A DNA stretch of 64,000 nt from NCBI GenBank assembly GCA_964036045.1, contig OZ038392.1, positions 26,707,663-26,771,662 of the forward strand. The letters run 5' to 3'. Shown piece after piece: positions 2,591 to 64,000 of the stretch. The notes under the pieces were generated by a model. That model did not search any database. It was not told the origin of the DNA and saw only the letters and a list, made by a program, of their open reading frames with translations. This DNA comes from Eutreptiella sp. 'Long Island Sound 2002' (taxonomy: Eukaryota > Euglenozoa > Euglenophyceae > Eutreptiales > Eutreptiaceae). Within the stretch, counting starts at the first letter, position 1. Each line of letters opens with the position of its first letter. A program made the position numbers and the translations under genes.

Positions 2591-4156
2591 ATGGAGCGAC
2601 CTTTCGACGACGCAGCTATGCTGCACTTTATCAGAGACAGTCTGTTTCGAACGGACTCACCGTTGCATCACGAGTTTTCTATTTTGTTAGAAAAGTTCAT
2701 CGCAGGGCGCATCGCAAGTCGAGAAAGCGAGTGGTTTCCATGCATTTCTCGTGATCTTCACAGCTTGTCGCAGAAGCTTGCAGATACTCTAGCCAAGGTC
2801 ATCGAATTGGAACAACGCATTGATGCGTTGCAGACAACAGCAGCAAATGCTACTGCGGCAACTGATCACCGAGTAGACACTTTGCAGTCCTCGATGGAGA
2901 ATGCAACACAAGCTGCTGTAAGCGAACTTCGACGTCTGGAACATGAACTTTCGCAATGTTATGTCCTTCTCGACGAGCTTACACAAGTTTCGAGTCAACA
3001 ACCTTCGAATCACTTCCAGTTTCCACAGTAACAACCACAACCACAACCACAGCCATCTCCTTCGAGCTATCCGCCGTATTCACCGCCGAACAGTTCACCT
3101 TATCCACCGCAACAATCACCTCCACAGCCACCTGTCCTCGACCCGTCGATGAATACAGCGAACTCAATGCACCAAGTCAATCCAGTGAATGTCGCAATTC
3201 CAACTGCTCCAACACTCGAGATTCTGGGACGTCGTGTTGAACGCTTCAATAAGCTGATTCGAAGATTCTCTGGGTGACCGGGATCTGGAGAATTTTGCAC
3301 ATGGGAAGAGGACCTTATGAGAGCCTTCGCTTTGTCCGATATCACATCAACCGTCGATCAGGTGACCACCATACCGTTTCTCCTTGAAGGTGATGCTGTT
3401 GAGTATTATCACAGTTTGACGAAAGTTGTACAGGATGACTCGTTCGAGCTCATGCGCGTGTTGGGTCAACGTTTCGATTGCATATCCCACGAGCCAGTCT
3501 ACCTGTCGAGAGTGTTGACCTTGAAAGAAAGTGAGTTCCCTCCACATGCGGACTACGTCAAGGAATTCCGAAATTGCGCCATCAAGTCGAAGGTTAACAC
3601 CAGTGACCTCCAGATGGGTTACCTCGTCAACTCTCGATTTGTTGAAGGTTTGTCGAATGACGCTGTTCGTCGGCAGTATATCGTTGAGGTCCGTTCGAAA
3701 TGGCGTTCTGGGAGACCATTTGGCTTCGATACTTTGGTGGAGACCATTGCAGAAGCCTACATGACGGCCAGTTACCAGCTCGAGGAGGTACAGAACGCAT
3801 CGAGAACGGCACCTGATACCATCGGTCCTGTGGTCTCGAGACCCCTGCCTATGACGGTCTCGCCAACCCCGACCTCTACAACATTTCCTTCCAATCCTAT
3901 GCCAACACCGCACGTCAACCCCATGCCAACTCCAGCCGCGGCCCCCATGGCTTCGACTGTACCAGAGCCAATGAACCTCGATATAATTGCCAAGCTCCGA
4001 GAAGAACTACATGCATACATTGGTGAACGTCGAAATGAACGGTTGGGACGTCAAGATGGTCGAGAAAGTAGGCGCTGCTACAATTGTGGCGAACAAGGCC
4101 ACTTGGCCCGCGACTGTCCAAAGCATCGACCGCCATCCCGAGGACGAGAATGTTGA
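2591..4156 (+). pseudogene. gag: gag of the gypsy element, two in-frame stops
   Basis: One frame runs from ATG 2591 to 4156 (521 codons) and is broken by TAA at 3029-3031 and TGA at 3275-3277. Both look like C-to-T changes (CAA, CGA). The N-terminal 146 residues include a coiled coil. A Gln/Pro-rich linker follows, then a retrotransposon capsid-like region (about 3370-3700) with the typical pattern of aromatic and Arg residues. A zinc knuckle CX2CX4HX4C (CYNCGEQGHLARDC) lies near 4076-4117. After the TGA at 4154 the same frame continues Arg/Ser-rich with more stops. In the family this protein forms the virus-like particle and packages RNA; here it is broken. Confidence 0.85.
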
Positions 4157-4451
4157 GAATCAAGATCAGGCACGCCACGAAGAGATCTGAGTCGAGACAG
4201 TAAGGGACGGTTTTGATCCCGCTCCAAGAGCAAAGAACGGCCCACGATGGCCTAGGAATCATCTTCGAAGACCTGGTGGTGGATGTCCTCGAGAAGAGTT
4301 GAACACCACCATCAGTACCAGTAAACCCGAAAAGAATTCGACACTTGGGTGTGTCAACGTCAAAGGAACCGAACCTGAGCATGTGTCTCTGTTCACGGTT
4401 TGAGGGCGCATTTGTGCACGTCGTGATGACTCCTTTGACTCCAGCGTCGAA

Positions 4452-4712
4452 TTGTTAGTCAACTGTGGAGCAACCAGTGACTTCATGTCAATGCAGACTG
4501 CAAAGAGGGCGCGACTTCCCCTCTACAAACTGACAAACCCTGGACACATCTTAACAGCCGGAGGTGTCCAAGTCGAAGTGCGATACTACACGAGAGCCTA
4601 TGTTCGAGTTGCAGAACTCGTATTTCGACATCACTTCAAGGTCTTGGAGATTCTGCCGGATGTGGTACTTGGACTACCATGGCTTCAAAGCTATAATCCA
4701 ACTGTCAACTGA
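4452..4712 (+). pseudogene. Aspartic protease domain of the gypsy pol, active site altered
   Basis: The 86-residue frame has the retropepsin-like fold signatures: the active-site loop reads LVNCGATSDF where the family has (L/I)(V/I)D(S/C)GA, and a hydrophobic LGLPWL segment lies near the C-terminus, as in Ty3/gypsy proteases. The catalytic Asp is replaced by Asn (AAC for GAC), so proteolysis is not expected. A TGA ends the frame at 4710. Pol resumes in the same frame after a short gap. Confidence 0.75.
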
Positions 4713-5950
4713 AAGGAACGGTATGCGGACTTCCAACATGGCTCGAGTTCATACCGGTTGTCTTTTGACGAGTAGAGACATTCCACCCAGCTGCAGTTCC
4801 AAGCCGCTTCGAAGTTGGACCTTCTTTCAATACTTTTATCCAGTGCCTCGAAAGCGAGTCCGGTTGGAAATCCTACCCCGCATGCCAAGGAACGCCCTGA
4901 CCTACACTCGTCGACACACGTCCGGAATGATGCTGACATGTACGATGAGTCCGAAACGGAAGATGGTATCACCGATGGAGAGTGCAGCGATATGGAGATC
5001 GAGTACATCTCGTTGCCGAATCTCAAAAAGGAGGACCGTCGAGCTGATCTCACGGGAGATCAAGTGTTTCTGTGCTGCATGCCTCGACCTGCAGTGCCGG
5101 TGGATCAAATGCATAAGATGCAAGCAAGCAGTGACGATGACGGGCTTGACCCCGTTAGACGCAAATTGCCTATTCGAATACACAAATGGGCGGACCTCTA
5201 CGACCGGGAGAAGGCGGAGTATGGAGACCTACCTCTGCATGGACCTGGTAAAAATCATCGAATACGCCTCGATTCGGAAGACAATCCACCGTGGGTGCAC
5301 CCTTACAAAATGGACCCGAGTCAATTACATGAACTTCGATGACAGCTAGGCAAGTTACATCGATCTGGTCGGATCATACAATCCTCGAGTCCATACCGAG
5401 CGGGTTGCCTGATGGTGAAGAAAGTGAATGGTAAATGGCGTATGTGCGTCGACTACCGAGCGTTGAATACACGAACTGTTCGAGATCGATATCCTTTTCC
5501 TTCGATCCAATCCCTCTTGAGTACACTGGGGGGTTCCACCGTATTTTCGAAGACAGACCTTGTTAGTGGGTTTCACCAGAACCGAATCCACGACGAAGAT
5601 GTCGAGAAAAACCGCCTTCAACACACAATTTGGCGCCTTCGAATGGGTTGTCATGCCCTTTGACCTCTGTAACGCGCCATCGACGTTTCAACGCGTCGTG
5701 AATGATGTCCTTTGAGACGACTTGGGGATCTTCGTATGGGTGTACATCGACAACATTCTCCTCTTCTCGAAGCATGCTGATGAACACCAATGACATCTCG
5801 ATTTGGTACATGAACTACTCCGTCGACACCAGCTATTTTCCTGCATCGATAAATCCACGTTCTTCCAGAGTCGACTACCCTTCTGCCGATACATCATCGA
5901 CAGAGATGGAGTACACATGGACCCGAAAAGATCAAGGGCATTCGAGGTTG
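4713..5950 (+). pseudogene. Reverse transcriptase region of the gypsy pol, frameshifted
   Basis: An acidic linker (4815-5342) precedes the RT. The stop at 5340-5342 is TGA where the context expects Arg. RT fingers begin at about 5412 (VKKVNGKWRMCVDYRALN). A frameshift at the A-run near 5604-5612 moves the frame, after which the palm reads [14 protein letters not shown] and then VYIDNILLFS. The YxDD catalytic box is therefore YIDN, with the second Asp changed to Asn by a G-to-A change. In-frame TGA codons follow near 5716 and 5791, and another frameshift near 5925 returns to the connection domain. The enzyme would not work in this copy. Confidence 0.85.
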
Positions 5951-6884
5951 GCCTCCCCCGACTACGGTCCATGAAATTCGACAATTCATCGGGTTGTGTG
6001 GATTTTACCAGCAGTTTGTCGAAGGGGTCCAAGCTGTCGCAGCCCCTCTGACCGCAATGTTTAAGGCAGATCTCGAGTGGGACTGCACAGCTGTGCATCA
6101 AGCTTCCTTGGACAAGCTGAAGCAAGCAATGATCAATACGACACATCTCAGTGCCATCGACCCCCGACAGCCGTATCACTTGTACACGGATGCTTCGAAA
6201 GATCGCGTGCGTGCCACGCTAGCGCAGCGATGCGCGCATGGAAAGTACAAGGGACATCTTCGACCTATTGCCTTCATGTGGCGGAAAATGCAATCTTCCG
6301 AGACTCCATACTTGATTCGAGAACATGAGCTGTTGGCCATCGTGTTAGCCTTGAAGCAGTGGTTTCATCTACTTCGAGGACCACAGCAGGTGCATGTGCA
6401 GAATGACCACAAAAGCCTTCGTTATCTTAAGACATGGCCTCGACGGCTGACACGACGACAAGCACGTTGGTCCCAGTTCCTCGAGGAATACAACCTCACG
6501 TTGTGGTATGTACCAGGCCTCGAGAATCCAGCAGCGGACGCCTGTTCCCGGCTGACTTCGCGACAGTTGATGGACATCGAGAATGCCACACGTACACGGG
6601 CCTTTGTAATACCCTTGGTCGAGAACTGGTATTCACCGGAAGGAGAACCCGTCGATGAGTTCCTGCATGTGTTCGAGGACTCGTTCTCACACGATGAAGT
6701 GTGGCCCCAGCCATACGACCACCTGTACGTTTCACTTCGAAGCGGACGCTCCGTGGGGAAGGAACCTGATGTTGACGAAGATGCGGAACCAGCCCTCCAA
6801 TTTGACACCGAACCAGCCGTCGGGCCGGAGGACCTGGAGCCACTACCGTCAGACAAGACAGCCGTCGAGCCGGAGGACCAGTAG
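5951..6884 (+). pseudogene. RT connection and RNase H domain of the gypsy pol
   Basis: The frame starting near 5950 reads the tether common to Ty3/gypsy (IRQFIGLCGFYQQFVEG). The RNase H follows, with HLYTDASKDRVRATLAQ (first catalytic Asp), REHELLAIVLALKQW (Glu), and VQNDHKSLRYL, where the family has TDH (Asp conserved). It ends with the family-typical NPAADACSRL. A Pro/Glu-rich spacer with repeats of AVEPED type follows. A TAG at 6882-6884 separates this from the integrase in the same frame. Confidence 0.85.
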
Positions 6885-8420
6885 CCACTGCCATCAAACG
6901 AGATTCTGGCTGAAGATTCACAGAAACCAGAGGTACATCTCGATGATGCTGGCAACCAGCCAGACATGCCTACCGACAGCGACGACCTTCCCTACATAGA
7001 CATGGACTGTCCTCTTCGCGTCACTTTTGGCAAAGAACTTCGATATGCTCCGACCCTGGCGGAACTGATTCGCTGTCGACGCCACCGAGACCGCACACTA
7101 CAATCAGTTCCCTTGCCTAAGGTTGGGCCGAACACACCGTACCCGTCGCGTCTTAAAGGTACACACCGTCGAGTACACCGACACTATCAGTGCAAGGATT
7201 TGACTTCCACAGCTGTGTGGGCAGCAGCCTATCGAGAAGACCCACGTACGAGACACATCTACGAAGTCGCGGTTCGAAGCCCTGCGGCACAACACCAACT
7301 CCGTGATGCCAAGTTATCCTTCGATGATGGTACATTCTTCTATTTGTCGACAATGGGCAAGCGTGTGCTTGTCCCTCGAACGCTCGTGACCTCGATCGTG
7401 GCTATGTATCACGAGTCGGAGTTCTATGGTCATTCGGGAGTACTTCGAACCATGGCACTGATCAAGCGCGACTACGTTTGTTCACATCTCCAACATTACG
7501 TCGAGCGGTACATCTTAAGCTGCGATGTGTGTCAAGCGGCTAAGTCACGGCGTGTCGGCACCGCCAGGCTACCCAGACCCTTGCCGGTGCCCGACACTAA
7601 ATGGCATAGTGGGTCCATCGATTGGGTTTCAGGATTGCCGCTGACCACTAGGGGCCATGACGCCATCATGACTGTGGTCGACCGGTTCTCCAAGCGTGGA
7701 ATGTTCATCCCCTGCCACAAAGATATGACGGCCGACGACCTTGTCTATCTGTTCCTGCGTGAAGTAATTCGACTCAAAGGATGTCCTCGACAAATTGTTT
7801 CTGCTCCAGACAAGCTGTTCGAGTCCCAAGCGTGGAAAGAGTTGGCTCAGCGTTTCAAGATCGAGATGCACCAAACAGTAGCCAACGGTCCTCGAGGCAA
7901 CCGCCTAGCGGAGCGCAGCAACCAGTCGATCCTCCAGCGCCTGCGTACACACGGCATTTCTGGTAACAACAAGTGGGATGTCGACCTTCTGTTCGCCGAG
8001 ATTCAGTTTAACAACCTGACGTACAATAGCCTTCGGCTATCCCTTTTCCAGATTGATGAGGGACGTACACGCCATTTTCCCTTGGACTTTCCCCGAATGA
8101 CTTCTCATGCACATGAGCCTTCAACCGCGAATGTCTACATGCAACGAGCTGAGCGTACCTTCGATTCTGTGCGTGCAATGCTTGCCGAGGAACGTCGACG
8201 CCAAATGCATGTGGTCCTGTAAATGGACCGACACGTTCGAGTGCCTGAAGTGGGGGAACGATGGTGGGTGTTGGTGCCGGAATATCGACATAAAGGGAAA
8301 CTCGATGTTGTTTGGTGCGACCCTTACAAAGTTCTGGAGGTACTGAAAAAGGGCGAGAACGTTAAACTGGACATCCCTGCCCCTTCGATGGGTTGCGAGT
8401 TTTTAATCGAGACAGCATAA
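6885..8420 (+). pseudogene. Integrase of the gypsy pol, one catalytic Asp lost
   Basis: The reading frame is open from 6966 to the TAA at 8220-8222, then continues in frame to 8420. An HHCC zinc-binding domain is seen (H..HSGVLRT, CDVCQAAK). The catalytic core follows, with SIDWVSGLP (first Asp). The second block reads SAPDKLFES where relatives have SDRDKLF, so the second catalytic Asp is gone. The Glu block reads NRLAERSNQS. A GPY-like segment follows after 8223 (WWVLVPEYRHKGKLD). The DDE triad is incomplete, so strand transfer is not expected. Confidence 0.85.
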
Positions 8421-8808: not shown

Positions 8809-9579
8809 TTGAATGTCATCGTTGTTGACGAGATCAACGACACTGCCGGCGGAAATGGTAATGGTGCCGAAGCCCCAGCAACATCGACCTCAGCTTGCCG
8901 CTGTCGATCAGTAGCGTCAGCGCCAACTCGACCGAGTCGAGCGCTGGATCCGTTCTCGGCGCCGAACTACAGTCAATCGGCATACGCTGGAAGCTCGAAA
9001 GGAAAAGGAGGCCCCTCCTTGAAAGGAGGCAAGGGAGCGTCCGGATGGCTCGACAGTTCTTGGACATCGAGGCCGAACACCTGGACATCGAGGCCCAACA
9101 CATCCAGGAACGAACCGTCGTGGGGAAGAGAGCCGAACACCTCCAACAACAACAACGAGGACACTGCCCCCAACGACGAGTCATGGGTCGACCAATCATG
9201 GCTGTCGAACGCCCCGAGAACGCAAGCTACCACTCAAACGAACCAGTTAAATTCCTACTCTGAACAAGACGACGACGATGAAGACTATGGAGATCTACCC
9301 GATCCCTGGGCCGACGATGAGGATTATACGTATGCCACACAGAGTTGGTCGACGCCAGTGCCCTGTTACGATACTGTTCTGAAACCAGAATCGCTGTGGC
9401 AGCCATATAATCTGCAACAATACAACCTTGAAGTCCAGACCATCGAAGAACTCCGGCACCTGGGCACGTCCCGAATGAAGCCACCCTACAGATTTGGGAC
9501 GCACGAATACGATGCACTTGCGACAGAGTACATCAAGCTCGACCCGCAGGTGCTCACCATCGCGTCGAGTGCCATGGCT
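8809..9579 (+). pseudogene. Extra 3' ORF of the gypsy element, first part (before the LINE)
   Basis: An open frame lacks stops from just after TGA 8797 through the LINE junction and continues after the LINE at 18206 in the same frame; without the insertion it would be 672 codons. No in-frame ATG is present near its start. From about 8815 to 9260 the other two frames also read as plausible charged or coiled-coil sequence, so the true frame of the first third is uncertain. From about 9260 the frame encodes an acidic segment (EQDDDDEDYGDLPDPW) and then an ordered region. No known domain was recognised. It lies where an env or accessory gene would be in other elements, but no signal peptide or membrane helix is visible. 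Confidence 0.5.
8906..9579. repeat. 674-bp target-site duplication of the LINE, left copy
   Basis: Bases 8906-9579 (GATCAGTAGC ... GCCATGGCT) are repeated at 17532-18205. Both copies are exactly 674 bp and I saw no mismatch on reading them against each other. The base before each copy differs (C versus G). After each copy the sequences diverge at once: LINE poly(A) complement here, continuing gypsy ORF there. Confidence 0.93.
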
Positions 9580-9969
9580 TTTTTTGCACTGAACGGCGCC
9601 TTTTGTGGCTGGCCAGGCCGGGGAGAAAGGCTCTTGCGCGCCAAGCTTTTTTGGGGAGGGGCGGGAGCCCGAAATCAAGTTCAATCGCGGGCTGAGTACC
9701 GCTGCACGTTGCTGTCCTCGTCTGCTTCATCTCAAAGAGACTTGGCAGCCCCGTTATAGACAACCGCAGGCCGGGGTCGCCGCTTGATACCCGAAGGCGG
9801 TGTGGTTGCGGATTGGGGGTTAGAGCATGACGGCTTGAGCACGGGGGGTGGCTTGGGGGAGGGATTCATTTGCAGAAGTGACTGGTGAGTGCCAGTGTGG
9901 TAGTACTGATTGATCGCGCCGCTAGGGCTGTCGAGGGTCGGCGTGAGAAAATGTGTAAGTGTGGCTTTT
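9580..9969 (-). other. LINE 3' UTR and short A-tail
   Basis: About 390 nt lie between the ORF2 stop and the insertion end. The insertion ends in a run of seven As on the minus strand directly against the target duplication; one of the seven is shared with it. No ORF in this stretch has recognisable content. Confidence 0.75.
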
Positions 9970-12900
9970 TCAAAGAGATGACACGTTGGACGAGTGTGAG
10001 GACGATTGTGAGTTTGTACTCGCGGGGGAGGGGGGGGCTGGTGCGAAGTACCTTGTTATGCGAGGAGAAGGGGCGGAAATGGGGGCGGAGGCGGCGAGGG
10101 GGGGTGCTGGTCTAGGGGGGGGAGGGAGGTTGAACATGTCCCTGATTGTGAGCGGCCGTTTGGGGGGCGGAGGCTCTGGCTGGGGTTGACTTGCGGTACC
10201 GCGTTTCAGTGATAGAGGCCGGACGGGCCTTGGGGGCTGGCGGCCGTGTTTTCGAGTTTTGGTGTGTGCCGCAGGAGATGGGGGGCGGGGGCGTTTTGGG
10301 GGCTTGTGTGCAACTTTGTCCGGGAGGGGGGGGGGAGGGTGGTAGGCGGGGGGGGGGCGTTGTTGGGCGGTGTGCGACGTGCTGTAGGGCGACCAGGGGC
10401 GTCCCCATGAGTTGGGGCCCGTAGGGGGGGTGAGCGGGGCTGGGGGGGGGTGGTCTTTTAGCCATTCCAGCGTGCGGTATAGGGCGCTGAGGAGCAGGGG
10501 AACACGATCCCCCAGGGCGAGTTTTAAGTCGTGACAGTGTGCTGGTTTTCTTCGGCCGGAGGGAGGGGTTGTGAGTTTGGTGTACAGCGTCATGGGAACA
10601 AGCCCCCGGACGAAATTGCGTCTCTCCCCCACGTGTGTGGTCGCGGACCACCATTGGGACACCACCGTGGTGAAGGGGGGGCGCCAGCATTGAATGTAGG
10701 ATTGGACCAGGTGTTCGCACGTTGGGCAGTGTGAGACGAAAGAGATAACATCCATCGGGTGCGGGTCGGGGCAAGCGTGGCAATGGCGAGGGCGCAAGTC
10801 GTCGTGGAAAGCAAATGGCGCCATGTTGAAATTTCCGGAGGACCATTTGAAAGGGAGGCCTTTGAACCACGAAGTGTGATTGTAAAAATGGAAGCCGGAC
10901 GGTGCGTGGATGTTTTCGTGTTTGTGGCGAGGGAGGAGATGCTTGATTGAGGTTGTAGTCAATTTGTGTATGACTGGGAGGGGGCCCCTGGATATGCACC
11001 CTATCGGGGGGGGGGGAAGGAGGGAGGGGTCCCAGACCATCACGTGGGCGGCCCACTTTGAGTAAGCATCTGAGATTTCATTCCCCACGAACCCGGCGTG
11101 CCCCTTGATCCACCCCCAACCCTGGATCATCCCTGGGCGTAGGGAACCCTGAATGGACTGGAGAGAGGATTCCCACGTGCCGGCTGGCGAGCGTGATGGG
11201 AGGCCTGGGGGGGTGTTCGGAGAGAGAACGGTGATAACGTGGAGGTTGTCCCCTAGCACGGCGAAGGTGAGGTGCGGGTGAGATGCAAGGGCCCACCGTA
11301 GGAACATAATAGCGGCCCAGAACTCCGATCCCTCTGATGACTGGTACGCGGACGTTTGGCACAGTACCCATCTGGAGCCATTTGGAAAAAACAGGGTGGC
11401 CGCCGATCCGTAGCCCAAGGCGCCCGCTGAGCCATCCAAGTACACCCATGTCGTGCCGGGGGACGATGCGAGGAGGAGGGCAAGGGCTGCTTCACAACCC
11501 CATTCTTCGAGGTCGTCGGGGTCAAGGGAGTGAGGTTCATCTGGGAGCCGGTACAGCTCGCCATGCAGTGACGAGTCGAGTAGGACCCCGCCGTATGGCC
11601 CGGGGGGGGGGTTGAGGATGTATTCTTGAGGGTGAAGAAGGGGGGGGGTGAGCAGTTCGTGGCGCCCCGCCAGTTGAGGGAGGACAGAAATGGCTGGGTT
11701 TTGAAAGGTGTATTCTTTCTCGTTGCGGCGGAGACCGGGGTTTTTGATGGTGTGGGTGGTGCCGTCCGAAAACTGGAGTGTGGCCGATTCTGAGTGCACT
11801 TCCGTGACTGTACCTAGGTGGAACCCCAGGTCCTGGGGCGTCCGTTTTAATCTGTTGCCGAACTTGCTGTATTGTGGTGCCGGCTTGGTGGGTAGGAACC
11901 GGATCTGGACTTTTTCTTTTGAGAGGAAAAGGGAGGGGGGGCAGGAGGCCCAGAGGCCGGTGCTGTGGTATCGGAAGCCTATGGCGTGGCATGCGTCCAT
12001 GATGGTGTCTTGGATTGGGTTGCGTGTGGTGGAGAGCATTGCTTCGGAAAAAGATTCGTTTGTCGAGGCCGGGCCGTCTCCGTTGAGGTACCTTATTGCG
12101 GTGTTTACCAGGGCCATGCAAATTGAAAAAGTGAAGTGGCGGAGTCCTAAGCCTCCCTGGTGGCGAGGGGTGTAGCGGGCCTTAGGGGAGACGAGGCGGG
12201 AGATCCTGTGGGCTCTGTCCGGGGAGGGGTCATGCGCAACATTTTGCCAGATCATGGCCTGAAGGGCCCCCAACTCGTTCAGGGCCAGGGGGTGTGCCAT
12301 GAGGCGGTAGGAAAGAATAGGGATGAGTTGGACGTTCACTAAGAGAATGTATTCCGAAAGGGTGAGCTGGAGGGGTTGGAGGGTTGTGAAAAATGAGCGT
12401 ATTTCCGACTTGGCCAATGCCAGTGTTTGTGCCTCATGGTTGGCGGTGAAGATGTATACCCCTAGGTATTTGTAGAAATTGTGTGGTTGCCCCGTCTTTT
12501 GGTTTGTTGTCGACAGGGGGGTGCCCGAGGGGGAGGTGAAGGTTCTGGGGGGAGCTGTTCCCATAGCGTGGATCTCGGTTTTGCTGAGGTTAAGGTCTAG
12601 ACCCCACTCCCTGGCGACCGTGTCGAAGAAGTTTAAAACTTGCTGTATGCGGTCCCCATTCTCTGATCGATAGAGGAGGTCGTCAACAAAGGCGTGGCCC
12701 GATTCGTGTGGGGAGGGGGGTGCAGTGACGTGGGACGGCAAGGCGAAGAGGAGTACATTCAGGTAGAGGCAGAAAAGGATTGGTGACATGGGGCATCCTT
12801 GCCGAACGCCTCTGGTTTGCAGGTGTGAGGAGTGGGTTTGACCTGACACCACTGGGAAGTCGCGAGGGGCACGGTACAAGGATTGAATGAGGTTTACAAG

Positions 12901-14883
12901 GGGCGTAGGAAAGTTCAGGCGGGATAGAACTGTGAAGAGGGTGGTGTGGGGGACGGAGTTAAAAGCCTTATTGAAATCAATGTAGAGGCTGTAGCTACCG
13001 ACCGATTCCCGAAACGTGGATAAGAGGTTGAAAATGTGGTCCTGGCATCTGCGGTTCGGAAGCCCGCCGAACTGGGTGGGGTGTATGATGGAATGTTCAA
13101 CGGCCGCTGCCAGTAGCTCTCGGTTGGCGTGTGTTGCAATTATTTTGTAAACGCTGTTCAGCAAGGCTATAGGCCTGTAATTTACCGGGTTCATCACGTC
13201 CCCTTTCTTAAAAAGCAAGATAATGTTGGCTTCGAGCCATTTCTCGGGAAACGGCCGGTGGAGGTAGTAGTTGCATACCTTCCAAATGAATTGTTGGATA
13301 GGGGGGGGGGAGACGTGCAAAGTGTAGTTGTTTGTGAAGTCCCGCCCCCCCGCCTTGTTGGGCTTGGACCTCTTAAGCGTGTTGCGTAACGATTCCCAGG
13401 TAATGTCAGGGAGGAGGCCGTGTTTTGTGGGTTCGGGGCAGGCGGGGGAGTGTGCGAGTAGGCGATCCACTAGAGTGTTCGGCGGTGCGTATTCGAGGCT
13501 GCCCCCCAGGGTGAGGAGTGTAGAAGAGAAAATAGAGCCCACTTCTTTGGGGGTGGAGACGAGCTGTGTGGTGCCCGGGCGCTTCAGCGTTATTTCACCT
13601 CGTTCCACGGGGTTGAGCGCCTCGTTGATGGTGCGTTTGATCCTAGTTTTCCTCACTAGGCACCGATGGATTTTGGTGGTTGCGGCCTTGTTCACTTTGG
13701 TTTCCCACTCCTTGACGAGTTTGTTGAGCGTGTCCATGGAAGCGGGGTAGTTGGGATGGCTGGGGGGGGGCAGGGTTTGCAGGGACTCTTTGATTTTCTT
13801 TACCAGAGCCGAGGAGGTAGGGCGTGACGGCGTGGTGATACTGTGGTAGCTGGTCGCCACTTCCTCCAGCACGACGTCTGTGAAAAGCTCGATGTCCGCC
13901 GAGGACAAGGACTCAAAGCGGGGGAGGGTAGACTCGCACCATCGCGCCAGGGGGGCAAGGGAGTCGTGGTGCTTGGAGCGTTCCCGCTCCGTCAGTTTTC
14001 GGAAAACTTTCCTCTTAGTTGTGGGAGCTTCGGTAAAAGGGTGAGGGGGGACTTGAGAGGTGTACGTGACTGGGTGGTGGTCTGACGTTTTGTCGTCGGT
14101 TTGGATGGTTGCAGAGGTGGGGGCAAAAAATTCCGAGGCCGCCGGGGAGAGCAAAATATGGTCAAGGCGGCTACTGCTTGCCCTGTACGGGGTGGGGTAT
14201 CGGGAGAAGGACCGCTCGGTCGGGTGAAAGTGCCGAAAGGTATCGATGAGGCGCGGCGGGTCGCTCGTGATCTGTCTGCGAAGCCACGGCCATTCGTTGT
14301 CCGTTTGGAGGTTCGATCCGTCTAGTTCAGGGCACATTATGCAATTGGTGTCCCCACCGAGGACGTGGTTAGGATACTGATGCATGAGTGGCCGTAGGAT
14401 GTTTTCAATTTTTGAGCGGTGGACGTCCGTGCTTGGGGCGTATACCGAGACCAGCAAGGTGGGCGGGGCCCCCGGGAGAGTGAGAACGGCTGCCGCCAGC
14501 ATCCCTTCTGTATCTAGTCGGGGAAGGGGGGTAACGAAGCGGGAGAGCCGGGGGGAACAGACCAAGACGGAACCATGCTCGCCTCTGGAGTGTTTGTCTT
14601 GGCTGATATTCGAAACGATGGTGGCTTTAGTGCCCGAACCGTAGGCGTATACGTGGGGGAGGATGGGGGCGTGATTGATTTCTTGGAGGAAGAGGATGTC
14701 GAAGTCGTTTTTGAGGTGTCGGAGAATTTGGCTGCTCACTATGGGTTTCTTCTGCAAGTTGTGGGATAGAAAACGCAGTTCTGAAGGGAGGGGTATGGGG
14801 GGGCGGTGAGGCCGTTGGTAACCCTTCCGTAGGCGCGTTTTGGATCTCGGGGGGGGCGGGATAGGGGGGGGCTGGGGGGGCAC
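9970..14883 (-). CDS. LINE ORF2: endonuclease, reverse transcriptase, RNase H
   Basis: The product nicks target DNA and copies the element RNA in place. Numbered from codon 14883, the APE-type endonuclease spans about residues 35-280, with N42, E68, Y148, D178/N180, D241 (RLDH) and SDHH 267-270. The RT spans about 540-830, with D636 in LYIDFNKAF, RQGCPMSP at 694-701 and FVDD at 732-735. The RNase H spans about 1145-1285, with D1150, E1187, D1212, H1262 and D1272, all present. A zinc-finger-like C1368-X2-C1371...H1385-C1386-X2-C1389 follows. A Pro-rich basic tail of about 200 residues ends the protein. The codon at 14883 is GTG. The frame is open upstream to a TGA at 15018-15016 and contains no ATG there, so the true start is unknown. 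The protein appears intact. Confidence 0.93.
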   Translation of the reverse strand: MPPQPPPIPPPPRSKTRLRKGYQRPHRPPIPLPSELRFLSHNLQKKPIVSSQILRHLKNDFDILFLQEINHAPILPHVYAYGSGTKATIVSNISQDKHSRGEHGSVLVCSPRLSRFVTPLPRLDTEGMLAAAVLTLPGAPPTLLVSVYAPSTDVHRSKIENILRPLMHQYPNHVLGGDTNCIMCPELDGSNLQTDNEWPWLRRQITSDPPRLIDTFRHFHPTERSFSRYPTPYRASSSRLDHILLSPAASEFFAPTSATIQTDDKTSDHHPVTYTSQVPPHPFTEAPTTKRKVFRKLTERERSKHHDSLAPLARWCESTLPRFESLSSADIELFTDVVLEEVATSYHSITTPSRPTSSALVKKIKESLQTLPPPSHPNYPASMDTLNKLVKEWETKVNKAATTKIHRCLVRKTRIKRTINEALNPVERGEITLKRPGTTQLVSTPKEVGSIFSSTLLTLGGSLEYAPPNTLVDRLLAHSPACPEPTKHGLLPDITWESLRNTLKRSKPNKAGGRDFTNNYTLHVSPPPIQQFIWKVCNYYLHRPFPEKWLEANIILLFKKGDVMNPVNYRPIALLNSVYKIIATHANRELLAAAVEHSIIHPTQFGGLPNRRCQDHIFNLLSTFRESVGSYSLYIDFNKAFNSVPHTTLFTVLSRLNFPTPLVNLIQSLYRAPRDFPVVSGQTHSSHLQTRGVRQGCPMSPILFCLYLNVLLFALPSHVTAPPSPHESGHAFVDDLLYRSENGDRIQQVLNFFDTVAREWGLDLNLSKTEIHAMGTAPPRTFTSPSGTPLSTTNQKTGQPHNFYKYLGVYIFTANHEAQTLALAKSEIRSFFTTLQPLQLTLSEYILLVNVQLIPILSYRLMAHPLALNELGALQAMIWQNVAHDPSPDRAHRISRLVSPKARYTPRHQGGLGLRHFTFSICMALVNTAIRYLNGDGPASTNESFSEAMLSTTRNPIQDTIMDACHAIGFRYHSTGLWASCPPSLFLSKEKVQIRFLPTKPAPQYSKFGNRLKRTPQDLGFHLGTVTEVHSESATLQFSDGTTHTIKNPGLRRNEKEYTFQNPAISVLPQLAGRHELLTPPLLHPQEYILNPPPGPYGGVLLDSSLHGELYRLPDEPHSLDPDDLEEWGCEAALALLLASSPGTTWVYLDGSAGALGYGSAATLFFPNGSRWVLCQTSAYQSSEGSEFWAAIMFLRWALASHPHLTFAVLGDNLHVITVLSPNTPPGLPSRSPAGTWESSLQSIQGSLRPGMIQGWGWIKGHAGFVGNEISDAYSKWAAHVMVWDPSLLPPPPIGCISRGPLPVIHKLTTTSIKHLLPRHKHENIHAPSGFHFYNHTSWFKGLPFKWSSGNFNMAPFAFHDDLRPRHCHACPDPHPMDVISFVSHCPTCEHLVQSYIQCWRPPFTTVVSQWWSATTHVGERRNFVRGLVPMTLYTKLTTPPSGRRKPAHCHDLKLALGDRVPLLLSALYRTLEWLKDHPPPAPLTPPTGPNSWGRPWSPYSTSHTAQQRPPPAYHPPPPLPDKVAHKPPKRPRPPSPAAHTKTRKHGRQPPRPVRPLSLKRGTASQPQPEPPPPKRPLTIRDMFNLPPPPRPAPPLAASAPISAPSPRITRYFAPAPPSPASTNSQSSSHSSNVSSL

Positions 14884-15100
14884 TGGGGAGCCGGGCTGGC
14901 TGGGCTGGCTAAGGCAAAGAAAGTGCTGAATTTGGTCGGCCGGTATCCCGGCCGAGGTGAGCTCGTCGTCTAGCCCCTTGCCTGTGATGGTGGAAGCCGT
15001 GACTGGGCCGGTGGTTCACTGAATCTTGGCCCCTTTGTGTTCAGGTAGAGGGGGCTGGACAGTGCAGGAGGCGGGTACCCGGCCCTCTGGCTTTCGTGGG
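14884..15100 (-). other. ORF1-ORF2 junction of the LINE
   Basis: ORF1 ends in TAA at 15103-15101. ORF2 is in a different frame and is open from just after TGA 15018-15016, with no ATG before the GTG at 14883. The open upstream part reads as plausible protein (GLDDELTSAGIPADQIQHFL). ORF2 may start at a non-ATG codon, by reinitiation after ORF1, or through a frameshift that cannot be placed by eye. Confidence 0.5.
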
Positions 15101-17530
15101 TTAGCTTGCCTGTGGTATGTGTCGGAGGATTAGAGCGAGGCGAGGGACGGTACGAGGGACGGTTAGCCCAAACACTTCGTCTTCTCTCCGTCGAGGTATA
15201 CCGTGGTGCCACTCATGGCGTGCGGCCCCCGTGAGGACCAGGAGAGAGCGGGCAAACAGGCGGATGCGAAAGGAGTCCCCGTTGGAGGGGTTCTTAAAGA
15301 ACATTGTGGTGTCCGATTGGGAACCAAAAATGGACACTGGGTCGCCTAGCAAGGGGTCGTCCCCGTGGTAGCCGATGCCCTCTCCCGGGAGATACATTGT
15401 GCCCGTGATTTGGTTGGGAGGAGGGTGTGAGAGGCCTAGCCGCTCCAGCGCGGCATTGTAGGTTTGGAGGATGGAGGAAAACTCTTCCGGGATGAGGGAC
15501 GTGGCGGCGACTTTGCTCGGGCCGAGGTATGCGTGGCCGAAGTGTTGGACTGAGCGCCCGTGGTACTTCTCCCACGTGTTGTCGTGGAGAATCTTTTTTA
15601 CCGTTTCCTCTTGGCTTTCGGAGAATACGTCGCGGACGTAATAAAAACCAGCGGGGAGGCGGGGGTCGATTTGAATATCCGAGGCGGGGGTGGGGGCACC
15701 GTGGTCGGGGGGTAGGAGGGTGGTCGCCTCGCCTCCTAGTGGAGCAAGCAGCGGGACGCTGGTCTCGGACATCTCTTCGATGCGGCTTGGTCCCGGCGTT
15801 GGCGTAGCGGCGCCGGCGTCCTCCGGTGCCGCGTTCCACTCGCTGATGCGCTCAGTCAGCCCCGTAGCGGGCCTTTCACGAAGGGCGGTGACAAGTTGGG
15901 ACACGAAGGCCGTGGACCCCAAGGCGGCCCCCGCTTGGAGGCGCTGCACTATGGGTTGCTCGTGCTCGGCCACATCCGGGTCTTGAGCGGGGAGGATCTT
16001 CTCGAGGGCGATGAGGTTGCGGTGTAGTGGGGCAAAGGCAGCGTCTCCATATTTGAAATCATGCGCTAGCAGCGCGGATTCCCCCTTTTCGTAGACCACG
16101 AGGTAGGCTTGTTGGTGTTCGTAGGGAGGCCGCGTGGGCTCGAACGACACGTACGGGCCAAGAAACCCCGCTTGGACGCGCAAGTCGAGAGCGTGCGCCG
16201 ATCTTGGGGCCACTAGGAGCACGGCGGTCTTCGGGGCCTTAGATGAGTCGTATGAGGGCGGGGCCGGCGTCGCGTGGGCTCGCTCGGGGGCGCCCGAAGG
16301 CGCGGACCTCGCGTTGCCGTCGGATCGTGACGAGAACCGCACTAATTGCCCATCTATGCCATGAAAGAGGACAATGCCGCATGAGTGGAAGAAGCGGATA
16401 GCTAACGTTTGGACACCGGTCTTCATGACGTCGCACGGCGCGTGAGTGGTGTCAATCGCCACGACCAAGGAATCTTTAGACCGGAACATCGCTCCTAGGG
16501 GCGGTGAGGCGCCCCGTCCACCGGGCAGGTTGGCGATCATCATGGTGAGCATTTCCGGAGCTTGTAGGTCTTTGTTTCTTTCCTTTCGGTCCCTAGCGAT
16601 CACGGCTCGATACACTTCGGTAGTCGGCAAAGCGTGCATGTCCATTGCAAGGAGTTCTCCGGTGAGGAATTGGGCGCACTCTCGGACCTTAAACATGAGC
16701 TCGTCGGCAAAGCGAGATGGGAGTTCCCAATCAAACCGGTAGTAGGCCCAATGCGGGCTCTCGGAAGGGACTATGTGGCCAAACGGGTAGTAGGCATTTT
16801 TGGTGTTCACCGATACGTTTGCTAGCGCGGGGACAAACATTTCGTTCATTAACTTCATGAAAGCACGGGCGTCTCCAATTTTGCGTTGCCTTGGTTTAGT
16901 TTTATCTCTCTCTTCCGGCGGCGAAGGCTCAATGTGATCAAGGAATTCTATGCTCACCTCAAAACGTAGTGTTTTGTGCAACCGGAGGTCTCGCACCGTT
17001 GGATGGGCGTGCTTGGCGGCGAAGCGGAAAGGTTCAAACTTAAAATTGATGTCTTCATATCGGCACCCGTCAAAGGAAGAGGTGTTTAGGAGCAAGGCAA
17101 CATACGGCATCGTTTGATGGCCGCTCGTGCGGAACTCGTAGGAGTCTTTGCCGTCCCTTTTGACCTTGTAGGCGTCCCGGAGTTGCGCCCCGTGCATACA
17201 TATCACGCTAGAAATGTACGGAAGAAGAGGAAAAAGGGCGGAAGTTGAGCCTAGCATGCGAAAGGTGGCGGCAACCACTTGAGCGTCCCACGCCGGAATA
17301 ACGAACCATCCTTTGAGGTCTTTGTTCTCTTCTTTGGCTTTATCTAGCACGGTTCTTAATTGTTTAGCCCACGGGGTGGCGGTGGGTGGAGACTCCTTGG
17401 CTTCGGCTTGGGAATAGTCCAACTCATACGGCTTTAGGTAGAAACGCTTGTGCTTGAACAAAAGCTTTTCGAGCTCAGTGTAGTTATTGTGCGCAACGGA
17501 AGAGACCCTACCTCGATCTAGAATTTCCGT
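15101..17530 (-). CDS. LINE ORF1 with C-terminal AlkB-like Fe(II)/2-oxoglutarate dioxygenase (partial 5')
   Basis: The frame is open for about 809 codons, from the 5' junction of the insertion to TAA at 15101. The first codons are not a start, so the N-terminus is probably missing. Residues below are numbered from codon 17461. Residues 1-590 have no domain I recognise. Residues 599-786 (15667-15104) match the AlkB fold: opening LPAGFYYVRDVFSESQEE, then N683 and Y690 in an N-x6-Y context, LPGEGIGYHGD with H699 and D701, LLVLTGAARHEWHHGI with H753, and RLALILRH with R774 and R780. These are the iron (H, D, H) and 2-oxoglutarate (R) ligands of the family. AlkB proteins demethylate nucleic acids. 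Here a role in clearing methyl lesions or marks from element RNA or cDNA is an inference. Confidence 0.88.
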   Translation of the reverse strand, partial: TEILDRGRVSSVAHNNYTELEKLLFKHKRFYLKPYELDYSQAEAKESPPTATPWAKQLRTVLDKAKEENKDLKGWFVIPAWDAQVVAATFRMLGSTSALFPLLPYISSVICMHGAQLRDAYKVKRDGKDSYEFRTSGHQTMPYVALLLNTSSFDGCRYEDINFKFEPFRFAAKHAHPTVRDLRLHKTLRFEVSIEFLDHIEPSPPEERDKTKPRQRKIGDARAFMKLMNEMFVPALANVSVNTKNAYYPFGHIVPSESPHWAYYRFDWELPSRFADELMFKVRECAQFLTGELLAMDMHALPTTEVYRAVIARDRKERNKDLQAPEMLTMMIANLPGGRGASPPLGAMFRSKDSLVVAIDTTHAPCDVMKTGVQTLAIRFFHSCGIVLFHGIDGQLVRFSSRSDGNARSAPSGAPERAHATPAPPSYDSSKAPKTAVLLVAPRSAHALDLRVQAGFLGPYVSFEPTRPPYEHQQAYLVVYEKGESALLAHDFKYGDAAFAPLHRNLIALEKILPAQDPDVAEHEQPIVQRLQAGAALGSTAFVSQLVTALRERPATGLTERISEWNAAPEDAGAATPTPGPSRIEEMSETSVPLLAPLGGEATTLLPPDHGAPTPASDIQIDPRLPAGFYYVRDVFSESQEETVKKILHDNTWEKYHGRSVQHFGHAYLGPSKVAATSLIPEEFSSILQTYNAALERLGLSHPPPNQITGTMYLPGEGIGYHGDDPLLGDPVSIFGSQSDTTMFFKNPSNGDSFRIRLFARSLLVLTGAARHEWHHGIPRRREDEVFGLTVPRTVPRLALILRHIPQAS

Positions 17531-17531
17531 G

Positions 17532-18205
17532 GATCAGTAGCGTCAGCGCCAACTCGACCGAGTCGAGCGCTGGATCCGTTCTCGGCGCCGAACTACAGTC
17601 AATCGGCATACGCTGGAAGCTCGAAAGGAAAAGGAGGCCCCTCCTTGAAAGGAGGCAAGGGAGCGTCCGGATGGCTCGACAGTTCTTGGACATCGAGGCC
17701 GAACACCTGGACATCGAGGCCCAACACATCCAGGAACGAACCGTCGTGGGGAAGAGAGCCGAACACCTCCAACAACAACAACGAGGACACTGCCCCCAAC
17801 GACGAGTCATGGGTCGACCAATCATGGCTGTCGAACGCCCCGAGAACGCAAGCTACCACTCAAACGAACCAGTTAAATTCCTACTCTGAACAAGACGACG
17901 ACGATGAAGACTATGGAGATCTACCCGATCCCTGGGCCGACGATGAGGATTATACGTATGCCACACAGAGTTGGTCGACGCCAGTGCCCTGTTACGATAC
18001 TGTTCTGAAACCAGAATCGCTGTGGCAGCCATATAATCTGCAACAATACAACCTTGAAGTCCAGACCATCGAAGAACTCCGGCACCTGGGCACGTCCCGA
18101 ATGAAGCCACCCTACAGATTTGGGACGCACGAATACGATGCACTTGCGACAGAGTACATCAAGCTCGACCCGCAGGTGCTCACCATCGCGTCGAGTGCCA
18201 TGGCT
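17532..18205. repeat. 674-bp target-site duplication of the LINE, right copy
   Basis: This is the second copy of 8906-9579 with the same length. It continues without a break into the rest of the gypsy extra ORF at 18206, showing that this was the original sequence into which the LINE inserted. Confidence 0.93.
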
Positions 18206-19453
18206 GGTCAACGAAGAGGTCACGTATTCCTGAGCGAATGCCATGCAGCAGTTGTGACGAGTACGAACGCTGCTATCAACGAATTGCGCAAAATCATCGA
18301 CATTGACAGCTGGGGTCGAACAGCGCCGGTCCCCTACGAGACGATGCGAAGCGCGCCTGACACATCCTTCGATGAACATGGGAATGCTGGTGGCACGCCG
18401 AGCTACCAGTGGTACACAAAGATCGAAGTGGCTTGTCAGAACTTTCGAAAGACCCTCGTCGACTGGCGGCAATGCAACGAAGAGCTCGACTGGGGATTCA
18501 GGAACAATCTCTCCAAGCACGACCTGCCCAATCAAATTATGCGCCTGAACCGCATGCATCGAGAGATCTCAGGAATCCATGACCTGATGCACGTTGCCGA
18601 TGGAATCGAGGTAATCTTCAGGTACCGACGTCTCTGGACAGCGGACAAGATGCGTCAAGCAGCACCCGTTGCCGTTTACGATCCTTGGGCTCGTTCGAGA
18701 CCTCCAGAAGGTTTGCCAGACGAACAGCTGGCTGTTCGAAGACCGAACCCCCTTTCTCGCATACAAGGTCGACTTGCTTCTTCGACGACACCAATTGCGA
18801 GGCCTACAAGGTACCACTCGACTTGGGTACAAACGATATGGGTGCGCTCCACATCGAACATCGGACCTTATAGTCCAACTCCAGGAGTACTATCGACTAG
18901 GAGAATCGACCGGACCGGAGTTTTGATTGCTGACACACCGTGGTGGCGAGTCAATACGCGAACTGGTCAGTTCTATCACAGCATGGCCGCTGGTACTGGT
19001 TCGAAGCAAACCTATCGATGGTTCACCGGTCGACATGACGCGTTCTCCTTCAGGGTCACCAATCGGATGGATTTGTGGAACGAGGTTGTTTGGAGACCGT
19101 CGAACCTTTGGGATTTTTATGCGACCAAGGCACAAACATTGGGACCGGGACAATTCCCAGCACTTGCCCGTGAACATGTCTTCGTATTCCAGTACAAGTC
19201 CCCAATCGACGGCCGGCCCGGTGATCCCAACCTTCGATTGCTCAACCATCGATCTGGTATCCTGATTCAGAAGCGTGCCCTCGAAAGCGACATTCTTCGA
19301 CACTACACGGGTCATGACACCTTCAAGTTCATGCCTGGCGTCGAGACGCTGAAGGAAGTGCAGGAAGTATGTCGAGTCCAGGTGGTCGCTCGTCCACATT
19401 CGAGTGGGGCACAGACTGCTGAAGCGACAGTCGAAATGCCAGGTAATGGCTGA
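18206..19453 (+). pseudogene. Extra 3' ORF of the gypsy element, second part (after the LINE)
   Basis: This continues the frame of 8809-9579. The first section (to about 18665) is rich in Arg, His and Trp and reads like an ordered globular protein. Between about 18669 and 18926 another frame (LGLVRDLQKVCQTNSW ...) reads more naturally and uses the CGA/TCG codon style of this element, so two compensating frameshifts are likely in this copy. After 18926 the original frame is again convincing (TPWWRVNTRTGQFYHS). No match to a known family was recognised. The ORF ends TGA at 19451-19453. Confidence 0.5.
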
Positions 19454-19567
19454 TTCAACAGTCTGGATGCCAAGTAATGGCTGATTCGACAGTCTGGATG
19501 CTAATTAATGGCTAATTCGACAGTCTGGATGCCAAGTAATGGCTGATTCGATAGTCGGAACGCCATT
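19444..19567. repeat. 31-bp tandem repeat, four imperfect copies
   Basis: Units start at 19444, 19475, 19506 and 19537. Each reads TAATGGCTGATTCGACAGTC plus 11 more bases, with one to several differences. The array overlaps the stop of the extra ORF and lies in the region before the 3' LTR. A weaker partial unit precedes it. Confidence 0.85.
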
Positions 19568-19966
19568 AATGGTGTCGACTGCCTTAATATGCCCTGTCGA
19601 TTTGACAGATGTATAGGCCTTTTGGTTGTTTGTCTGCTGGGCACTCAGCTTCGAGGGCTGTACCCAATGCTATGGTTTTTTGACGGGCCCACAGCTTTGC
19701 TGTGGGTAGCGCCCGTGCAGTGTGCTTGGCGAAGTTGTCTTATGCAGCTTCTGCCAGGACACAGCCTTGGCAGAGTCCAACACGGCGTACGAATGAGGCG
19801 CTGACGACAGGTATACCATATACTGTACCTCAGTGTGTGGGTTTCGACCACTATTATGCTTCAGTAGCCAGCACATGTCGAGGTCCAAAAATTTTTTTTC
19901 TGGGCCCACCCTTCAAGTTCGACAGTGTGACGCCCACCCAGAGGAATGAGACCTCTTCGAGGTCTC
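19568..19966. other. Untranslated region before the polypurine tract
   Basis: No gene is seen. This is the internal 3' region of the gypsy element between the tandem repeat and the polypurine tract. It contains a short imperfect inverted repeat around CACAGCTTTGCTGTGG (19690-19705). Confidence 0.5.
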
Positions 19967-61891: not shown

Positions 61892-64000
61892 TCACCGGGT
61901 GGACACACACACACAACCTGCCCCGTGGCAGCTCTGCTGGCGTAACCTGTCAAGGCCCCCCCAGTCTGAATTCCACACTATGTCATATGCACGCAAGTCA
62001 GCACACCCTCTCGGGGCCCAGGAGGTATATCTGTCCCCCTCCCACTGTCCCCACCTTCTCAACCATACCTGGAGGTTGGCAATTGCCACGCACTTCAGAC
62101 TGGGGAGGGAATGTGACGCTGTGTAAACCGCTTTTACCGTCGCAGGCAAATGTGGTTCCGCTGCAAATGCGCGATGTAGGGCATGGTGTATTGCTCTCGC
62201 ACTGTCAGCACGACTATGGCCAGACAACATTGCTGTTTGCATCCACGCAATTGCACTCAGTATCTGTCCCGCCCACGACTGCAACCAGGGCCACCCGTTT
62301 GCAAGTGCTCCCGTAAAAATATTACTGAGATACCCCTTGAACGCATGCTTTGATGTCATCAAGGGTGGCCCCAGTCTCAGGAATCAGTCATCCTTTAGGG
62401 CCGCCGGGTGCACATGGTTAATGCCCCCTGCCCCCTGCCCCAACGCAATACAGAAGCCCATGCATTTGATAAGGGGTCCTAAACATTTGCCATGACAAGC
62501 CCCGTCCGTGTCTGCGCACGCACACTCCATGGGCGTGTCACACACGGTTTCCAGCACTATTTTCAAAAGGGAAACCAGCTCCTTGCAGTCTCCTGGCTCA
62601 GCGTCACTGGCCATTAAAATGCTGTCTCTGAAGTGACACAGGGCGATCTTCCACCGCCCCGTCCAGAAAACGTACCCCTCCTGCGACAGGTGCAGTGTAC
62701 CCAAACTCCTGAACGCCTGCCTGCCCTTGTACGACGCCCATATTGAGTGCAAGTCTACACTTTGGGCGGAGAAGCTTCCGCCCATCGGGATGCACCTGTC
62801 CCTTCTCCATAATTTGCCTACTGACCAACACTTGTTGTTTTTTTCCAGCTCAAAGGCAACATATCTGGACAGTTCATCATGTGTGATGTACCGGAAACTC
62901 TTATTCGTTCCCATCCCTGGCCTGTCCAAAGCGGCAACACTGTGATGCACATTCCAGGTCATGTTACCCATCCGCCACCTCCTCCTCTTTGTGAGAAACC
63001 CCACACCCTCCGACATGTGCTCTCCTATCCACTTTGGTTGGATCTTATTAAACTGTTCTTTATAGTCCAGCTCTGTAATGCAATGCATGTTTTCCCGATT
63101 GGCCCGCTGACACATCATTAACTCTCCGCACCTGAAAACTGTTCGGAATTTCCTCAATCAAACGTTCCAAGAAACATGTTAACGCTCTGGCCGCAGTGCG
63201 CGAATCTCGTTTGCGTATTTGGGGTTCAGGGTATGCCGCAATTGGGCGCCACAACCAGCGTCCCTTCACCAGGCTTTTTGCCTTTCCAATGATGTATAAA
63301 ACACATAGCCGTGCTATCAATTTGGCGTTCCAACCATGCTCTGTGATCAGGGCTTTCGTCTCTGCAATGACCTGTTGCGGGGTGGACCATGAGGTGATGT
63401 ATTTTTCGGCATGCAAAAACTCTTGCGTTTTTCTCCACAGCCAATTTTTACAAAAACCCCATGGCTCCCCCGCCCCTTTGTCGACAATTCTAACGTACAA
63501 ATGCTCGTGAATTTCCTCTACAGACGTGCGCGTAGTGTGTAGCAGCGTTCATCTCTCCTGAAACGGGCCCTTGGGGACAACGGCGTCAACGTTTGGCATC
63601 CTTCCCTGAACTTGCTTGGCAAACTGCTGGAGCGCTGAGACAGCCATTTTCCTGGCCCTCCTCCCCGTGACTGGGAGGGGATCGCGGGGGCGCAAAGGGG
63701 TCCCCGTAGCGTCCTGGACTCGAATCGGAATAAGAGCTAAACACCCATCTACCTCCATAACCGCCCCATATCTCTCAGGCTGAGCAAGGTTATGGCAGGA
63801 ACATCGCGGCTTCACCTCGCACAGGTCGAGGTCACGAGCTTTCCGGGCAAAATTCCATGTTAAGGTTATGGGGGCTCGATCGCACGACGCATACCAGTTT
63901 CATGACAGCCTGTTTTCCCCACGCCTTAGCATGTGTCGATTTCACGATTATTCTTGCTGGCTTGTGGACAATTGCTTTTTGACCAGGGGTCAGGTTGGGA
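61892..64000 (-). pseudogene. Reverse-transcriptase-like ORF of unknown family, broken
   Basis: The minus strand carries one coding region from the right edge to 61892 with at least three breaks: a frame change near 63890, another near 63110-63125, and an in-frame TGA at 62386-62384. In order, the pieces include a Cys/His segment (CEVKPRCSCHNLAQP, about 63800), GRWLWRPIAAYPEPQ (about 63250), ELDYKEQFNKI (possible RT motif A), RCIPMGGSFSAQSVDL (resembling RT motif B, IPQG-SPLS), HFRDSILMA (in the place of the YxDD box, only one Asp) and a Cys-rich CACADTDGACHGKCLG. A helical C-terminal region follows. No APE, RNase H or integrase motif is seen. The RT assignment is by motif order only. Confidence 0.5.

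Follow-up and report, generated by a model that had tools for sequence, protein, structure and literature searches.

A two-ORF LINE insertion in Eutreptiella

The DNA studied here, called the window, is a 64,000-nucleotide stretch of the genome of Eutreptiella sp. 'Long Island Sound 2002' (contig OZ038392.1, positions 26,707,663 to 26,771,662). It carries a 5'-truncated long interspersed nuclear element (LINE) of 7,949 bp on the minus strand (9580..17528), with a short A tail at its left edge, which is the 3' end of the element, and exact junctions with a flanking direct repeat. The first open reading frame of the element (ORF1, 15101..17527, minus strand) is open up to the truncation point and, counted from a TTG codon, has 786 amino acids (15101-17461, minus strand). 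Residues 590-786 of this ORF1 (15101..15694, minus strand) form an AlkB-type dioxygenase domain of the 2-oxoglutarate (2OG)-Fe(II) kind, and the N-terminal region in front of it (15695..17461, minus strand) has no significant Pfam match. The second frame, ORF2 (9970..14883, minus strand), is stop-free and encodes 1637 amino acids.

An endonuclease (EN) domain was found at residues 40-269 of ORF2 (14077..14766, minus strand; Exo_endo_phos, Pfam: PF03372, E 1e-8, together with its motifs), and a reverse transcriptase (RT) domain with an FVDD box at residues 560-809 (12457..13206, minus strand; RVT_1, Pfam: PF00078, E 2.3e-31). The RT region matches LINE-1 ORF2p in a PDB sequence search (E 4.9e-19). 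An apurinic/apyrimidinic-type endonuclease and a reverse transcriptase within a single ORF2 identify the element as a LINE. The initial annotation had described ORF2 as EN-RT-RNase H. The first two domains are well supported, but the RNase H at residues 1145-1277 (11053..11451, minus strand) is a weak match with a Pfam E-value of 1.9e-4; its 22.1 bits fall short of the curated cut-off, which is 25.8. We take the EN-RT-RNase H layout to be that of I-group type LINEs.

ORF1 is incomplete in the window, where the frame is still open at the insertion edge at 17528 and contains no ATG start. In P0002, a longer relative, we took the first in-frame ATG, at residue 82 of 984, as the start codon. Judged from this relative, a complete ORF1 would be about 903 amino acids long and the window copy would be short by about 95 residues.

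The AlkB-type domain of ORF1

The AlkB domain makes up the last 188-197 residues of ORF1. A full set of AlkB ligands had been read from the sequence at this end of the protein; the residue numbers are correct, and the Pfam AlkB family (PF13532), a phmmer search of the PDB, AlphaFold2 and Foldseek all concur. The residues located are N683 and Y690 of the N...Y strand, the iron ligands H699-x-D701 and H753, and R774 and R780, which form the R-x5-R motif for 2OG. H753 is the second histidine of W-H-H-G-I and aligns to the histidine of W-T-H-G-I in ALKBH8. The window domain matches PF13532 with an E-value of 5.6e-7 and 30.4 bits, where the curated cut-off is 31.2. Two of the four further LINEs described below score above this cut-off (L068 with 53.7 and L070 with 43.5 bits) and two below it (L069 with 24.4 and L071 with 29.6 bits), and the match has an E-value of at most 1 in all five ORF1 proteins.

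Searching the PDB with the domain, phmmer returned 5yl6 (E 4e-12), ALKBH8 (E 7.9e-11) and ALKBH6 (E 4.5e-9). The AlphaFold2 model of the domain (pLDDT 86.7, pTM 0.84) has the double-stranded beta-helix fold of the AlkB family. In the structure comparison, which had been set beforehand as a refutation test, this model matched the AlkB fold and its top Foldseek match was ALKBH6 (E 4.2e-16). The nearest structures appear to be ALKBH6 and ALKBH8 rather than ALKBH5, the eraser of N6-methyladenosine (m6A).

The ALKBH6 and ALKBH8 matches, among the closest in both sequence and structure, could indicate an ALKBH8-like action on tRNA or other cellular RNA instead of on element RNA, in which wobble or other modifications are changed and the element gains better translation or weaker host control. 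We regard this as rather unlikely. Fusion to ORF1, which in LINEs usually coats RNA, favours action in cis, and the genome has host ALKBH-like genes apart from LINEs (L072, L073), so that such a function is not obviously missing.

It is fairly improbable that the substrate is DNA, with adenine methyl marks or alkylation at the target site or on the new cDNA being removed to aid integration or expression. The structure comparison shows that the fold is also common to NMAD-1, ALKBH2 and E. coli AlkB, whose PDB titles describe action on DNA, but by sequence the domain is nearer to ALKBH6, ALKBH8 and Ofd2. We noticed no DNA-specific feature, although no search was aimed at one.

The reported fusion of the domain to a long, unrecognised N-terminal region holds up, and neither Pfam nor NCBIfam gave a significant match there. 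Two Pfam families were hit at chance level (E 0.17 and 0.26), each in a single member. AlphaFold2 on the whole ORF1 reached a pLDDT of only 26.8, so it provides no fold for the N-terminal region.

Copies and relatives of the element

We searched the 2.28 Gb genome with ORF1 and scored the 57 best of 3,457 candidates, a lower bound and a biased sample; all 57 are open, stop-free and 99-100% identical. In the protein collection the family of the window element forms clusters of 163 and 121 members, next to many decayed copies. The window element is one of the copies of an abundant two-ORF LINE in this euglenophyte genome, 5'-truncated and probably recent. A protein search with five ORF1 sequences retrieved 56 proteins, none of them less than 76% identical to the window ORF1. 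This search missed the other LINEs of the same genome and is therefore weak evidence of absence elsewhere. Two scans of viral contigs turned up no relative.

Of 14 other full-length copies with both flanks, 10 have short A tails together with a 5'-edge repeat that matches along 16-23 bp; one copy lies inside a tandem repeat, and three are without a tail at the expected place. The window insertion lies between two copies of a 677-bp direct repeat (8903..9579 and 17529..18205, both plus strand; 99.85% identity), which we read as an unusually long target-site duplication. The low divergence of one mismatch suggests that the insertion is recent. This repeat far exceeds the short duplications of the other copies. 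It sits inside a reading frame that, in the right copy, continues beyond the repeat (17645-19453), and at the end of this frame there is a 31-bp tandem repeat (19418-19572).

In five older copies of the window family (L063-L067) the seven checked residues of the AlkB domain are all kept. The ratio of nonsynonymous to synonymous substitution rates (dN/dS) between a young copy of the window type and these five copies is 0.080-0.160 for AlkB and 0.110-0.153 for the remainder of ORF1. In single decayed copies the AlkB ligands are preserved no better than other sites, which is expected because copies die after insertion; selection is visible between lineages only. Thirty young copies showed 2 nonsynonymous and 8 synonymous changes in AlkB and 10 and 57 in the rest of ORF1, but these counts are biased because the copies were chosen as best protein matches.

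A genome search with a distant metagenomic AlkB domain (P0079), of which the best 150 of 1,482 candidates were scored, listed the window copy last. The matches lie in open frames of 205 to 1,801 amino acids, some of them containing stops. We examined longer stretches for six of the 150 matches (L068-L073), and four of the six are LINEs with the layout of the window element, L068 in one deep branch and L069, L070 and L071 in another. Homology of their ORF1 proteins to the window ORF1 spans about 550-630 residues (E-values of 4e-54 to 7e-62), with AlkB at the end. An ORF2 comes after ORF1 in all four and is 30.7-43.6% identical across the fetched part. This part shows both EN and RT for L068; for L069 it shows EN with the beginning of RT, and for L070 and L071 just EN. 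The remaining two stretches, L072 (103-1818) and L073 (1125-2423), resemble host ALKBH genes and are outside LINEs. Upstream in L073 an RRM-like stretch, as in ALKBH8, can be seen by eye, and Pfam gives no match for this L073 stretch.

An RT search for the L068 family showed that at least 56 of 83 copies have an upstream AlkB in the same orientation; in 53 of the 56 the distance is 1.6-1.8 kb. Among the 150 AlkB matches listed, none lies downstream of the RT and two are on the opposite strand. The 27 RT copies without an upstream AlkB may be truncated, or their AlkB may fall outside the best 150 of 1,482. The fusion thus extends, as the initial annotation needed it to, beyond a single copy to other copies of the family and to other LINEs of the genome. 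A one-off fusion is ruled out by the multi-copy family, by L068-L071 and by the AlkB upstream of RT in the L068 family. Chance capture of a host ALKBH fragment in a single copy has a negligible probability in view of the many family copies and the four more LINEs with the same plan.

Identity between the window ORF1 and those of the other four LINEs is 27-28% in the N-terminal region and 27-33% in AlkB, compared with 59-80% and 52-73% in the three close pairs among L069-L071. Across the deep branches the N-terminal region is 25-28% identical. Over all ten pairs AlkB identity declines together with that of the remaining ORF1, which fits a domain inherited from the common ancestor and not exchanged afterwards. 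A tree calculated without L081 and L077 separates the LINE-type AlkB domains from the others at a branch supported at 84/86, with long branches; with all rows the support is 87/82. These trees agree with a single origin but are not decisive, and collinearity is the better argument.

Nine further short stretches were compared; four group with L068 and three with L069-L071, L080 is distant, and L081 has lost several residues. Leaving L081 uncounted, the set of LINE-type AlkB domains comprises 13, five of which were seen beside an ORF2 on the fetched DNA. Loss of the H-D-H triad in other copies of the family had been named as a refutation. In the other LINEs the cofactor residues are kept, except that in one branch the aspartate at the second metal ligand is replaced by glutamate. 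The second ligand is D in six, E in six and N in one of the 13 domains, and HxE in place of HxD occurs in L069, L070, L071, L075, L077 and L079, all of one LINE branch. The other ligands are nearly invariant in the domains covering each position. The first histidine is present in all 13 and the second in all 12; the first arginine is kept in 12 of 12 and the second in 11 of 12.

The E and N residues at the second metal ligand could mean that the domain is kept for binding or structure without catalysis, at least in the HxE branch. HxE is itself a recognised metal motif in 2OG oxygenases. Together with the near invariance of the remaining ligands and the seven intact residues in every older copy of the window family, this makes a non-catalytic role unlikely in our judgement.

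Elsewhere in the window, 3317-8222 holds the remnants of a different retroelement, with a zinc knuckle of the CCHC type and a stretch resembling RT/RNase H recognised by eye and an integrase at 6966-8222 matched by Pfam. An ORF at 62384-63157 (minus strand) resembles, by eye only, part of another retroelement protein.

Spliced-leader ends and the possible role of the domain

The copies open with the 28-nt sequence ACACTTTCTGAGTGTCTATTTTTTTTCG, found with at most three differences at 29 of 30 loci (L002-L030, around oriented position 926) and exactly at 18. Of the inexact leaders, seven deviate in their first one to three bases, another three carry an extra T and one has an inner substitution. 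The locus lacking the leader is the truncated window copy. The leader is also at the start of four of the five older copies (L063-L065, L067), and one copy checked in each of two other deep branches (L083, L084) carries 24 and 25 of 25 bases. In L027, near position 926, the leader is joined four bases further downstream (ATTG missing), maybe by a separate splicing event or a small deletion.

According to PMC3621762, ACACTTTCTGAGTGTCTATTTTTTTTCG is the Eutreptiella spliced leader and is identical to that of E. gracilis. The exact leader occurs 1,513 times in the genome (G000), compared with no occurrence of a reversed control; the dinoflagellate spliced leader was not found in the 64-kb window. 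A dinoflagellate or Perkinsus as host was rejected, since the leader at the copy ends indicates a euglenophyte. A dense cluster of exact leaders (G000:C2:22680-1594736) with recurring spacings of 1,700, about 17,308 and about 27,937 bp is possibly a repeat array with leader genes, and two leaders lie 42 bp apart at G000:C1:62485367 and 62485409.

In copies with a recognised target-site duplication the leader adjoins it directly or within a few bases, so the leader derives from the RNA template. The RNA of these LINEs that was reverse transcribed had thus probably been trans-spliced. Outrons of E. gracilis end in a C-rich tract and CAG, as described in PMC11170887. Because the target-site duplication precedes the leader, a new copy does not come with an outron. 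The next RNA may regain exactly one leader by re-splicing or by transcription start at the leader.

In LINEs, ORF1 usually encodes an RNA-coating protein. Our preferred explanation, which we hold with somewhat better than even confidence, is that AlkB is an ancestral C-terminal module of ORF1 in this LINE clade, with ORF1 coating the RNA of its own element and AlkB demethylating it. Tethered to this RNA through ORF1 and using Fe(II) and 2-oxoglutarate, the domain would strip methyl groups oxidatively, either host marks or alkylation damage such as 1-methyladenosine (m1A), 3-methylcytidine (m3C), 3-methyluridine (m3U) or m6A. The demethylated template would evade methyl-dependent host control and would stay readable for the ORF2 RT as far as the 5' end. 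The retention of AlkB while the branches diverged suggests a need for the domain in copying or hiding the element's RNA. The mechanism is one that we infer, and the likeness to ALKBH6 and ALKBH8 does not fix the substrate.

In kinetoplastid cap 4, bases near the cap are methylated on the base-pairing face, and by analogy those of the leader may be methylated in the same way in the template. AlkB might then be an answer to copying trans-spliced, cap-modified RNA, the ORF1 eraser clearing leader methylation so that RT reaches the first leader base. We consider this variant of the proposal a long shot. Of the 29 copies with a leader, 22 have its first base, although in some it could belong to the target-site duplication. 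Six of the 29 have T instead of A at position 1. We rejected this T as a methylation footprint left by misreading: in the three of these six with flanks in hand (C22b, C23b and C10) the downstream duplication copy has the T as well, which means that the leader merely lacks its first A.

The closest solved folds and sequences, human ALKBH6 and ALKBH8 and S. pombe Ofd2, are about 25-30% identical to the LINE domain in structural alignments but are cellular genes without retrotransposon context. LINEs with an EN-RT-RNase H ORF2 share with the elements described here ORF1 and ORF2, EN, RT, RNase H, a short A tail and short target-site duplications; here, in contrast, a dioxygenase ends ORF1 and the copies start with the host spliced leader. 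In plant viruses the AlkB domain is located in the viral replicase, as opposed to a retrotransposon ORF1 here. PMC9289625 names Alphaflexi-, Betaflexi- and Closteroviridae as plant RNA viruses, likewise selfish RNA-copying elements, whose AlkB is thought to repair or demethylate their own RNA.

The same source describes Ty3/Gypsy elements (Ogre-like, Tat) of the orchid Phalaenopsis that also encode an AlkB-type dioxygenase with cofactor residues, and the m6A RNA demethylation that it reports in vitro is a precedent for our proposal. According to this source, the orchid elements are of the long terminal repeat (LTR) type with AlkB as a separate extra ORF, close to the plant and human RNA demethylases (ALKBH5-like) and recently gained in one lineage. 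Here the elements are non-LTR, and the ALKBH6/8-like domain is fused to the end of ORF1 and common to LINEs whose ORF1 proteins are about 27% identical. Several points weigh against a simple repeat of the orchid case, namely the apparently greater closeness of the LINE domain to ALKBH6 and ALKBH8, the HxE motif in one LINE branch, and the observation, in PMC7873242, that m6A favours LINE-1 in mammals. Dinoflagellate and charophyte retrotransposons with cytosine methyltransferases, described in PMC5890265, likewise took up a nucleic-acid modification enzyme, there a writer of DNA methylation and here a putative eraser. Among the titles and abstracts listed in searches of open-access literature, the orchid LTR case appeared but no LINE with an AlkB domain; these searches did not extend to subscription papers or Repbase, so a prior description is possible. 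The main text of the E. gracilis genome paper does not mention AlkB.

The control of transposons by RNA methylation, and the response to it by erasers, has been debated from host enzymes and one recent LTR family. In Eutreptiella a domain of the eraser type has long belonged to a LINE clade; it persists across divergence as deep as about 27% identity, and the genome also has very young copies. The spliced-leader ends further suggest trans-spliced RNA as the template of these LINEs. That a retrotransposon needs its own dioxygenase thereby becomes a directly testable claim.
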